40,886 nt of DNA, from NCBI GenBank assembly GCA_002938315.1, contig PTLL01000014.1:1-40886 (forward strand), in the 5' to 3' direction. Both the position numbers and the translations under genes were made by a program. Shown here one piece after another: positions 30,978 to 35,508 of the stretch. A model generated the notes under the pieces. That model saw nothing but the letters and a program-made list of their open reading frames with translations, was not told the DNA's origin and made no database searches. The stretch's first letter is position 1. Each line of letters starts with the position of its first letter. The stretch comes from Alphaproteobacteria bacterium MarineAlpha3_Bin2 (GTDB taxonomy: Bacteria > Pseudomonadota > Alphaproteobacteria > Rhodospirillales > Casp-alpha2).

Positions 30978-33900
30978 CTACATATTACGGCGGTATTTGC
31001 CGCCTGCCTCAAACAGGGCATCGGTGATCTGCCCAAGCGAACAATATTGGACCGCGTCCATCAATTGGGCAAAGGTATTGCCGCCACCGGTGGCGGTTTC
31101 CTTGAGTTTGGCCAACGCCGCGTCGGCGTTTTTTGAATTCCGCTTCTTGAATGCCGATAAGCGTTTTATCTGACTGTCTTTTTCTTTTTTAGTAGAGCGT
31201 TGTAGCTGCCTCGGTGTGGCGGTATCTGTGACCGCATCTTCAAGGAACGTATTGACGCCGATAATCGGCAGCGTGCCGTCGTGCTTGCGGGTTTCGTAAA
31301 GCAGCGATTCTTCTTGGATCTTGCCGCGCTGATATCCGGTTTCCATGGCGCCGAGGACGCCGCCGCGCTCGCTAATCCGTTCGAACTCGCAAAGCACCGC
31401 TTCTTCGACCAGATCGGTCAATTCCTCGATGATAAAGGCGCCTTGGTTGACGTTTTCATTTTTGCCGAGGCCCCATTCCTTGTTAATGACCATTTGGATA
31501 GCCATAGCCCGGCGCAAACTCTCCGGTGTCGGCGTCGTGAAGGCCTCATCGTGGGCGTTGGTATGGAGGCTGTTGCAGTTGTCGTAAACGGCGATCAGCG
31601 CCTGCAATGTGGTCCGTATATCGTTAAAATCCATTTCCTGAGCATGCAGCGATCTACCGGAAGTTTGTATATGATATTTAAGGCGTTGTGAGCGTTTATT
31701 TCCATTATACTTTAATTTCATGGCGGTCGCCCATATGCGCCGGGCGACGCGCCCCATGACGGTGTATTCCGGGTCCATGCCGTTGGAGAAAAAGAATGAT
31801 AAATTTGGGGCAAAGTCGTCAACCTTCATGTTCCGCGCGAGGTAGGATTCAACGAAGGTGAAGCCATTGGCGAGGGTAAACGCCAGTTGGGAGATCGGAT
31901 TGGCACCGGCTTCGGCGATATGATAGCCGGAAATCGACACCGAATAGAAGTTTTTCACTTTATTTTCAATAAAATAGGCCTGAATATCGGCCATCATCCT
32001 GAGCGCGAATTCGGTCGAAAATATGCAGGTATTTTGACCCTGATCTTCCTTGAGGATATCGGCCTGGACGGTGCCGCGGACGGTTTCCAGCACCCAAGCC
32101 TTGATTTCAGCGGCTTCCTTCGCCTTTGGCGGCCTACCCTGTTTCTCCCTGAAGGCGTCCAGGCGCTGGGTTATGGCGGTATTTAGGAACATCGCCAGGA
32201 TCGTCGGCGCCGGCCCGTTGATGGTCATGGATACCGAGGTAGACGGGCTGCAAAGGTCAAATCCCCGGTATAGAACCTTCAGGTCGTCCAGGGTGGCGAC
32301 GGAAACGCCGGAATTGCCGACTTTCCCGTAGATATCGGGACGCTGGTGGGGATCGAAGCCGTACAAGGTGACGGAATCAAAGGCCGTCGACAGCCTTTTG
32401 GCGTCGGAATGTCTCGACAGCAACTTAAACCGATAGTTGGTAGCCGCGGGATCACCCTCGCCGGCGAACATGCGGGTCGGGTCTTCTTCTTCCCGTTTGA
32501 ACGGGAATACGCCGGCCGTATAGGGAAAATATCCAGGTAGATTTTCCCGCATCAGCCATTTTAAAAGCTCGCCATCATCTTCGAAGGACGGCAGCGCGAT
32601 ACGCGGTATAAGGGTGCCGGAAAGTGATTCATTTTTGAGCAGAATTCGCGATTTATCGTCGCCATTGTTTTCAACTAATTCCTGTCCGGATAATTTTTCT
32701 TTGATCTTAGGCCATTCTTCGAGAAGTTTTTTGGTTGTTGGATTTAAGGCCTCCTGTCGGGCCTGAATCAATGGATCGAGATCACTGGTTGGCTTGCCGG
32801 CGATTTTCAAAATCGCCTTCGAAGCGGTAAGTTGCTGGCGTTCCCTGGCAAGGCAAACCTGCTCGGCGATGGTTCGGTGATAGCCGCGTACGGTGTCAGC
32901 GATTTCAGCCAAATAACGCCGACGTTCGGGCGGAACAAGGTGGTCCCGGAAGCTGGAATCGGGATCAAAATTTTTCAAACCAACCGGTTTGGATATTCTA
33001 TTTAATACATTGAAATTTTTAAAATTAAGTACTTTTAAAAGACCATTATAAAGGGCGGAAATCCCGGGGTCGGCAAACCGCGATGCAATCGTCCCGAAGA
33101 CCGGCATGTCAGTAACCGGTTTGGTAAATTCCTGGCGGTTCCGCTGTACTTGTTTGCGGACATCGCGCAATGCGTCAAGCGCGCCCAGGCGGTCCATTTT
33201 GTTGATCGCAATCAGGTCGGCGAAATCCAGCATGTCGATTTTTTCAAGTTGGCTGGCGGCGCCGAATTCGGGTGTCATAACATATAGGGAAACGTCGGTG
33301 AAATCGACGATGGCGGCATCGCCCTGCCCGATCCCCGGCGTCTCGATGATGATCAAATCGAAATTTGCCGCCTGGCAACAGGTGATGATGTCTTCCAGGG
33401 CCGCCGGCACTTCTGTTCCCGATTCACGTTTGGCTAGGGATCGCATATAGATGGTGGGGGACGTGATGGCATTCATGCGGATGCGGTCACCCAACAGGGC
33501 GCCGCCGGACTTGCGCCGCGACGGGTCGATGGCGATGACGGCAATTTTTGGTTCGTCACCGTATAGCCGGAAGCGGAGGATCAATTCGTCGGTCAGGGAC
33601 GATTTTCCAGCGCCCCCGGTGCCGGTTATGCCGAGCACCGGTGCCGGGGTGCCTTTGTTGGCTAGGGCCTGGATGTCATCGCGGCGCTTTTTCGGCAATA
33701 CACCCAGTTCCAGGGCGGTGATAAAGCGGGCGAGATCGGCGTCGTTGGCGGATTTCAGTCCATTTAAGTCTTTGGGGAGAGCTTTTTCCGACTTCGACGC
33801 ACTGGTTCCGGATTCAGCAAGGCTGATCATGTCGAGGATCATGCCGTCGAGGCCCATTTTTCGGCCATCTTCTGGGGTATAGATACGGCAAACGCCGTAA

Positions 33901-34328
33901 TCCCGGAGTTCGGCGATTTCGGCTTCAGTGATGACCCCACCGCCGCCTCCGAACACCTTAATTTCCGGGCGGTCGCGCTGGGCCAGAAGGTCGACCATAT
34001 ACTTGAAGTATTCGACATGGCCGCCTTGGTAGGAACTGATGGCAATGCCCTGAACGTCTTCTTGGATGGCCGCGGTGACCACTTCGTCAACGGAGCGGTT
34101 ATGGCCTAGATGGATGACTTCGGCGCCGGCGCCTTGCAGAATCCGGCGCATGATGTTGATGGCGGCGTCATGCCCGTCAAACAGGCTGGCCGCGGTGACG
34201 AACCGAACCGGCGCATCGAGGGCGAGGGTTTTGGACCGATTAGTTCCAGAATTTGGAGTTTGTGCGGATTTACCCGCCTTTTTGGCAGTCTTTTTGCCCT
34301 TGGAGATGGGAATGACAGCGTTTGCCAC
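30978..34328 (-). CDS. icmF: Fused isobutyryl-CoA mutase IcmF (B12-dependent)
   Basis: A 1116-residue fusion of the three parts of an acyl-CoA mutase. Residues about 42-165 bind cobalamin (axial-ligand H53 in [26 protein letters not shown]). Residues about 230-430 are a MeaB-like GTPase chaperone (Walker [10 protein letters not shown] at 236-244, and INKMD). From about 560 is the acyl-CoA mutase barrel, with [23 protein letters not shown] and [14 protein letters not shown]. It rearranges isobutyryl-CoA and n-butyryl-CoA, with the GTPase protecting the cofactor. Methylmalonyl-CoA mutase uses separate subunits and lacks the internal GTPase. The start is GTG at 34328 with AGGAG upstream. The basic N-terminal 40 residues are an extension. 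Confidence 0.95.
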
Positions 34329-34396
34329 GGGTCAGGCTCCTATTCTTGCCCTCTAATTTTAAACCTTGTGTGGAACTTTTAAAGGCCTATCTTTCC

Positions 34397-34414
34397 GTTT
34401 ACGTAAACGTAAAC
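34397..34414. promoter_or_regulatory. 18-bp near-palindrome midway between icmF and hemB (LiuR-like operator candidate)
   Basis: GTTTACGT, two bases and ACGTAAAC form 8-bp perfect arms. Its ends stand 69 bases from both the icmF GTG (34328) and the hemB ATG (34483), so its centre is the exact midpoint. The TTTACGTTTACGTAAA pattern on the minus strand resembles, from memory, sites of the MerR-family regulator LiuR of branched-chain acid degradation genes, which would suit icmF. No regulator gene of this type is in the window. Confidence 0.5.
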
Positions 34415-34482
34415 TTATTTCCGGTCCTGGTAAAGCTCTTGAATCTACGAATCCAGGCTTCTACTCTCCGGAAAATACAATC

Positions 34483-35508
34483 ATGACCAAAATCTTGAAA
34501 CACCGGGATAAAAAAATGGATGGCCGGTTTCCCCGTACCCGCATGCGTCGCAACCGTCAGGATGCGTGGTCGCGGGCGATGGTTTCGGAAAACGCCCTTG
34601 CCTCCACTGATCTGATGTGGCCGGTTTTCATCAGCGAAGGCGGGAATACGATCGAGCCTATTTCCTCGATGCCAGACGTGAATCGGCTTGGCATCGACGC
34701 CCTGGTCGACGCCGTCGCCGAGGTCGCGGAATTGGGCATTCCCGCTATTGCGTTGTTTCCGTACACCGATGACAGCCTCAAAACGCCAGAGGCTGAGGAA
34801 GCCTATAACCCGGAAAACCTTGTTTGCCGGGCGGTTCAGGCGGTCAAAAAGGCGCATCCCGGGGTCGGTATCATGTGCGATGTGGCGCTAGACCCATACA
34901 ATTCAGACGGCCATGACGGGCTGGTCCGTGATGGCCGGGTTCTTAATGACGAAACGGTGGAAATTCTTACCCGTCAAGCGGTGGTTCAGGCGCGCGCCGG
35001 TTGCGACATTATCGCCCCTTCGGACATGATGGACGGGCGCATCGGCGCCATCCGCGACGCCCTGGATGCCGAGGGATTTCAAGACGTCCTTATTATGTCC
35101 TACGCGGCCAAGTATGCATCCGCCTTTTATGGGCCATTCCGCGACGCGGTTGGGTCGTCGGGTGCGCTTAAAGGCGACAAAAAGACCTATCAAATGGATC
35201 CCGCCAACTCCGATGAGGCATTGCGCGAAGTCGGCCTCGATATCGACGAGGGCGCCGATATGGTGATGGTCAAACCGGGCTTAGCCTATCTGGACATCAT
35301 TCGCCGAGTAAAGGATGCCTACAGCGTTCCCACCTTCGCCTATAACGTTAGTGGGGAATATGCGATGCTGAAGGCTGCCGCCGATCACGGCTGGTTGGAT
35401 TACGACACGGTGATGATGGAAACGTTAATGGCGTTCAAACGTGCCGGCTGTAACGGGATATTGACCTATTTCGCCCTTGAGGCGGCGCGGCGCTTCAAAA
35501 AAGGCTGA
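34483..35508 (+). CDS. hemB: Porphobilinogen synthase (delta-aminolevulinate dehydratase), Mg-type
   Basis: A 341-residue enzyme joining two aminolevulinate molecules to porphobilinogen for heme and cobalamin. The Schiff-base lysines are in SYAAKYASAFYGPFRDA and MVKPGLAYLDI, both present. The metal loop reads CDVALDPYNSDGHDG: Asp and Ala replace the Cys triad of zinc enzymes, so this is the Mg-dependent/Cys-poor type known from Rhodobacter and Pseudomonas. The frame opens at 34366, but the ATG at 34483 suits the family. Another ATG at 34516 is possible. Divergent from icmF, it also feeds synthesis of the B12 that icmF uses. A strong hairpin follows. Confidence 0.95.
   Translation: MTKILKHRDKKMDGRFPRTRMRRNRQDAWSRAMVSENALASTDLMWPVFISEGGNTIEPISSMPDVNRLGIDALVDAVAEVAELGIPAIALFPYTDDSLKTPEAEEAYNPENLVCRAVQAVKKAHPGVGIMCDVALDPYNSDGHDGLVRDGRVLNDETVEILTRQAVVQARAGCDIIAPSDMMDGRIGAIRDALDAEGFQDVLIMSYAAKYASAFYGPFRDAVGSSGALKGDKKTYQMDPANSDEALREVGLDIDEGADMVMVKPGLAYLDIIRRVKDAYSVPTFAYNVSGEYAMLKAAADHGWLDYDTVMMETLMAFKRAGCNGILTYFALEAARRFKKG

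Follow-up and report, generated by a model that had tools for sequence, protein, structure and literature searches.

Isobutyryl-CoA mutase interconverts isobutyryl-CoA and n-butyryl-CoA, and the physiological role of its fused form, IcmF, is poorly defined. In Alphaproteobacteria bacterium MarineAlpha3_Bin2, icmF is transcribed divergently from hemB, and the region between the two genes contains a palindrome, which raises the question of what regulator reads this element and on behalf of which gene. The window, that is, the whole stretch of DNA that was analyzed, is the 40,886-nucleotide contig PTLL01000014.1 of assembly GCA_002938315.1; the features discussed here are collected in Table 1.

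Table 1. Features of the icmF-hemB region of the window
Feature	Position	Strand	Basis or remark
icmF, fused isobutyryl-CoA mutase/GTPase	30978..34328	-	NF045497; GTG start behind AGGAG, by eye
LiuR-type operator, 22 bp, predicted	34392..34413	.	Two overlapping 16-bp registers and conservation before icmF
Palindrome as first described, GTTTACGT-AA-ACGTAAAC	34397..34414	.	Read from window sequence
CTTTAC element	34430..34435	- (icmF strand)	16 nt before operator
hemB, porphobilinogen synthase	34483..35508	+	Divergent neighbor of icmF; alternative in-frame ATG at 34516

The icmF product scored 1817 bits against the NCBIfam equivalog NF045497, for which the cut-off is 1500. Its best solved relative is 4xc6, which we take to be the IcmF of Cupriavidus metallidurans; the two proteins align from residue 39 to the end, leaving the first 38 residues unaligned. 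Like 4xc6, the protein retains the F of RMFAGEG and the Q of KEDQGQNT, presumably the determinants of isobutyryl-CoA specificity.

The original prediction described a near-perfect palindrome between the two genes, and its bases, coordinates, and 8-2-8 arms all agree with the window sequence. The window contains four perfect 8-2-8 palindromes, compared with a mean of 0.45 in 20 base shuffles, so that the palindrome by itself is not distinctive, and the idea that it is rare in its own right was rejected. Its center, 34405.5, does lie at the exact midpoint of the start codons used, as had been stated, but this geometry was rejected as meaningful: the nearest relative (L011) has AGG in place of the hemB ATG at 34483, and the distances to both genes vary among relatives, which makes the midpoint a coincidence. 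Its inner 16 bp, 34398-34413 (TTTACGTAAACGTAAA), match without mismatch the pattern TTTACGTNNACGTAAA, presumed to be the LiuR-like consensus. A second match, shifted leftward by 6 bp and overlapping the first (34392-34407), has one mismatch, and the element is therefore a 22-bp pseudopalindrome centered at 34402.5, longer than the palindrome first described. These 22 bp are almost unchanged across 14 aligned icmF-hemB spacers. Neither TTTACG nor ACGTAA was found in the available part of the text of PMC7238569; the consensus letters also stand before a LiuR homologue in Vibrio sp. THAF191d (L344).

The genome from which the window derives (2.27 Mb in 123 contigs) was scanned for TTTACGTNNACGTAAA. 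With at most one mismatch the motif occurs in only three places, compared with 0.1 to 0.2 expected, namely the icmF/hemB spacer, C42:20713-20734, and C42:23705-23726. The first C42 site precedes a liu-type operon led by an acyl-CoA dehydrogenase gene and continuing with genes for cupin, thiolase, SDR, thioredoxin-fold (DsbA-like, by eye), rhodanese, and carboxyltransferase-like proteins. The dehydrogenase is named by no family model; its position and likeness suggest isovaleryl-CoA dehydrogenase (LiuA). The second C42 site stops 13 bp short of the start codon of a gene encoding a MerR-family protein of 130 amino acids. A second copy near acyl-CoA genes and a LiuR-type regulator gene carrying its own copy, both of which the original prediction had proposed to look for, are thus present in this genome. 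At up to two mismatches the reversed control was as frequent as the motif (8 versus 7 matches), so that a looser match is not evidence by itself, and no claim is made for the two-mismatch match at C70:12248.

The regulator has the MerR-family fold, with PF13411, PF09278, and PF00376 all above their cut-offs, and it falls far below the cut-off of every metal-sensor equivalog. Homologues that are 49% and 52% identical to it are encoded in Vibrio sp. THAF191d (L344) and Photobacterium sp. GJ3 (L345), where they are followed by relatives of the dehydrogenase (70-73% identical) and of the carboxyltransferase (about 61%) and are preceded by the sites TTTACGTTAACGTAAA (Vibrio, 0 mismatches) and TTTACGTAAACGTTAA (Photobacterium, 1 mismatch). 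At the third locus examined, from Aeromonas caviae (L343), the regulator adjoins a thiolase gene, and neither a site nor a dehydrogenase match was found. Because its homologues head liu-type operons in Vibrio and Photobacterium, the regulator is called LiuR here, a putative membership drawn from neighborhood and motif. An aspartate-dehydrogenase-like gene (L008:8447-9286) lies directly behind liuR, and a similar gene occupies the same place in the other loci inspected (L118, L120, L122, L125, and L126).

Within the window's family, 48 genomes were searched; icmF and the sequence upstream of it were recovered from 34 of them, at a total of 35 loci. The site stands before icmF with at most two mismatches in 33 of these 35 loci, with or without an adjacent hemB. 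The two loci lacking it belong to G024 and G010, and the motif at no more than one mismatch was found nowhere in either genome; G024 (96% complete) lacks a LiuR orthologue (best E value, 5.9e-8), and G010 has LiuR pieces only. The liuR-like sequence of G010 is in two pieces (G010:C46:24720-25028) on the same contig as the site-less icmF. In a scan of 11 genomes at up to one mismatch, the eight with a close LiuR had 4 to 6 matches each, with overlapping registers counted separately, and G014, without LiuR, had 1; the motif totaled 40 matches versus 11 for the reversed control (G010, 5; G042, 3; G024, 2; G009, 1). The matches that were followed up stand before liuR, the liuA-type gene, and icmF and beside thioesterase/enoyl-CoA hydratase genes. 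Single matches at G009:C102 and G014:C2 were taken as chance. In genus g14, one-mismatch sites also lie between acyl-CoA ligase and aconitase genes (L117, L121, and L124, from G042, G043, and G045), with the gene families named for L117.

Beyond the family, 259 genomes of the order were searched, yielding 52 further icmF genomes. LiuR was considered close at an E value of <1e-40 and absent when there was no hit at an E value of <=1e-20. Of the 20 genomes with a close LiuR, 19 had the icmF site, compared with 2 of the 16 in which no LiuR was found and 1 of the 16 whose only hit was a weaker homologue. The twentieth close-LiuR genome, G053, provides only about 280 bp upstream of icmF. The exceptions having the site without a close LiuR were G060 and G080 (88% complete) and also G082; the IcmF stretch of G082 does not differ from that of G084, a genome with LiuR. 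The MerR homologues of the 16 weaker-homologue genomes are 44-55% identical to the query and thus as similar to it as the Vibrio protein called LiuR. In the 10 of these 16 loci that were inspected, a site within 300 bp upstream was found only in L207 (2 mismatches), an acyl-CoA dehydrogenase gene stood beside the homologue in none, and a thiolase relative (33-36%) was found instead in 9; a 1-mismatch site lies about 480 bp away in L206. On these grounds, the weaker homologues were not counted as LiuR and are judged to represent a different MerR subgroup, which remains a matter of judgment. The loci with a thiolase-like gene are L201-L205 and L207-L210, all but L207 without a site within 300 bp upstream, and their MerR genes perhaps encode a sister regulator of fatty-acid breakdown.

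Kinship was considered by placing both traits on a tree of 81 IcmF sequences, and both could be scored for 73 of these rows. LiuR and site occurred together in 42 rows, neither in 29, the site only in 2 (G044, 91% complete, and G082), and LiuR only in 0, giving a Fisher p of 2e-18 with kinship ignored. Six independent pairs differ in LiuR; four agree with the association, none opposes it, and two are the same in site (sign test, p = 0.125), so that the direction is one-sided and, with few independent changes, significance is not reached. In a second scoring, in which the weaker-homologue genomes were also set to unknown, the association holds on fewer rows (42, 15, 2, and 0 in the same order), and five pairs are available, of which three agree, none opposes, and two are neutral (p = 0.25). 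LiuR was scored as unknown for G003, G008, G010, G023, G036, G060, and G080, where the genome was <90% complete or the hits were broken or weak; the upstream sequence of G053 was too short to score the site. One bad row with a very long branch, G103, was left in the tree, which does not include G100 (one of the 52) or L037, L040, and L091-L095, family loci with partial genes. L036 and L037 start only at residue 88 and lack the upstream region, and G021 is covered by L095.

More distant loci were drawn from named genomes, as the best 80 of 586 relatives; 78 of the 80 were long enough and two were too short. Among these best 80, the site was found at up to two mismatches in 23 of the 78 usable loci, compared with 0 of 78 for the reversed control. 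Judged by record title, the 23 comprise 16 from betaproteobacteria, 4 from gammaproteobacteria, 1 from a Rhodospirillales MAG, and 2 labeled only "Proteobacteria"; a second Rhodospirillales MAG in the same set (L212) and all 21 Bacillota or Actinomycetota loci were without the site.

The operator is accompanied by a further element, CTTTAC or TTTGAC, which is found upstream of it on the icmF strand, at an offset of 16 nt in 18 of 21 hemB-linked loci, with one more at 28. Where hemB is not adjacent, 17 of 34 loci have the same element at an offset of 16, 22, or 28 nt, and this retention of the register led to its rejection as a hemB promoter element. Offsets of 0 to 59 were scanned, and only two occurrences were found elsewhere. 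The three offsets are 6-bp steps, equal to the half-site period. The element may represent a -35-like box of icmF, with the -10 box inside the operator, or a further half-site.

The original prediction went beyond icmF in suggesting that the site might act on hemB as well. In this reading both divergent genes would be controlled, and LiuR would couple the supply of heme/B12 precursors, through hemB, with the B12-dependent mutase. Within the order, hemB is the divergent neighbor of icmF at 21 loci (L144 and L145, the same hemB-icmF spacer from G082 and G084, are counted twice), and the site is retained in all 21, a result that also bears out the expected conservation of the repeat among relatives with this gene pair. 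Co-control is further favored by the absence of hemB from the fetched stretch of all 30 site-less loci outside the family (three with <0.8 kb) and by the placement of the codon equivalent to the first hemB codon of the window, which lies 69-163 bp from the site in 18 loci; in three loci encoding HTH-HemB fusions this codon is 320-342 bp away, and the ATG of the fusion head is at about 110-132 bp. The site-to-icmF distance also varies (about 27-133 bp, for the starts chosen), so that distance does not discriminate, and the correlation with adjacency is confounded by kinship, to which the site-less loci without adjacent hemB are attributed without thereby being explained away. Where hemB lies apart from icmF, however, no site was found within 500 bp in any of 18 loci even at 3 mismatches, and 11 of the 18 belong to genomes with a close LiuR; this count leaves out L040 (linked hemB) and L059 (C-terminal piece). 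Conversely, icmF retains the site in 34 loci with no hemB in the fetched stretch, in G042, where about 6 kb separate the two genes, the site stands before icmF alone, and the fixed-register CTTTAC element is likewise found without hemB. Co-control is thus considered unlikely, and the attractive idea of a shared control of B12/heme precursor supply and a B12 enzyme has to be corrected as unsupported here. The best reading is that hemB would simply share an intergenic region with icmF, an arrangement in which collateral effects on hemB may occur.

In three loci (L016, L017, and L040, from G004, G001, and G008), HemB carries an in-frame N-terminal Cro/C1-type helix-turn-helix; HTH_3 (PF01381) is above the cut-off in all three, whereas the window's hemB has no such domain. 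An enzyme of heme synthesis that carries a DNA-binding domain is a curious combination.

It is also conceivable, at a still lower probability than control of both genes, that another regulator, such as a TetR or GntR acyl-CoA regulator, uses the motif and that the MerR gene is a bystander. Of 20 loci with a close liuR gene outside the family, 14 have the site within 300 bp of it (at most two mismatches), and the 6 that do not would fit such a bystander. The motif nevertheless accompanies the MerR gene itself, standing in its own upstream region with at most two mismatches in 29 of 30 family loci; it co-occurs with this gene across the order; and in five distant loci among the best 80 of 586 relatives (L221, L246, L257, L262, and L266), the site separates icmF from a divergently oriented gene for a LiuR homologue. 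The idea that the palindrome is an intrinsic terminator, an RNA hairpin, or part of a riboswitch was rejected as scarcely credible, since, although a terminator-like scan picks 34397-34414 on the + strand, the element lies between divergent genes where no + strand gene ends, has only 3 G-C pairs, has no Rfam match at an E value of <=1, and recurs before different genes.

The palindrome is thus very probably a LiuR binding site controlling icmF. That a LiuR-type operator would fit icmF had been proposed from the palindrome, and the proposal is borne out by the presence of the motif at liuR and the liu-type operon, by its conservation, and by its co-occurrence with LiuR. We consider it highly probable that LiuR uses the 22-bp element as an operator, acting as a MerR-family repressor that would hold down icmF along with the branched-chain breakdown genes until a pathway intermediate releases it. 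The sequences show the motif, its recurrence at the liuR and liuA-type promoters, its conservation, and the co-occurrence with LiuR; we infer binding, repression, an inducer, and a physiological role in the following sequence. LiuR seated on the operator would keep RNA polymerase off the icmF promoter; during degradation of branched-chain amino acids, an intermediate of the pathway, probably an acyl-CoA, would release LiuR; icmF would then be switched on along with liuR and the liu-type operon; and IcmF would interconvert isobutyryl-CoA derived from valine and n-butyryl-CoA. If LiuR controls icmF, induction of icmF together with the liu operon is to be expected.

The presence of a LiuR-type operator before icmF in three proteobacterial classes ties IcmF to the breakdown of leucine, isoleucine, and valine. 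A broader proposal, to which we give even chances, is that icmF has long belonged to the core of the LiuR regulon in alpha-, beta-, and gammaproteobacteria, with a natural job in branched-chain acyl-CoA metabolism (conversion of valine-derived isobutyryl-CoA to n-butyryl-CoA), and that its operators are 6-bp-periodic arrays of TTTACG half-sites seating LiuR in more than one register.

In the parts of the sources available, LiuR is described as a regulator of liu-type genes for R. rubrum (PMC7238569) and called a MerR-family repressor in Shewanella (PMC3223726), and LiuR regulons are counted in 103 proteobacterial genomes (PMC5343134). An icmF target was not found in the available text of these three papers, and icm, mutase, and methylmalonyl had no match in the available main text of PMC5343134; in the part of PMC7238569 available, isobutyryl-CoA mutase is judged unlikely in R. 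rubrum. No link between LiuR and icmF was found in the literature searched, whose scope did not extend to RegPrecise and Kazakov 2009, which may list icmF, perhaps as methylmalonyl-CoA mutase. In other respects the system resembles the LiuR regulon of branched-chain amino acid degradation, as far as the available text describes it, in pairing a MerR regulator that has its own site with a liu-type operon as target, and the gene order of the operon here is much like that of the R. rubrum liu cluster (PMC7238569).

The regulator has its DNA-binding fold (PF13411 and PF09278) in common with the MerR-type activators MerR, CueR, and ZntR, from which it differs in falling far below all metal-sensor cut-offs. 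In all six genomes inspected, the operator at the liuA-type promoter covers TTGACG and a 17-bp spacer before a -10-like box, read by eye as TATGAT, TAGTAT, TAGACT, or TATGGT; TTGACG is itself a half-site, which makes its reading as a -35 box ambiguous. The spacer is thus 17 bp here, compared with the 19 bp given for mer in the source text available, and a promoter of normal length covered by its operator fits a repressor rather than activation across the long 19-bp mer spacer.
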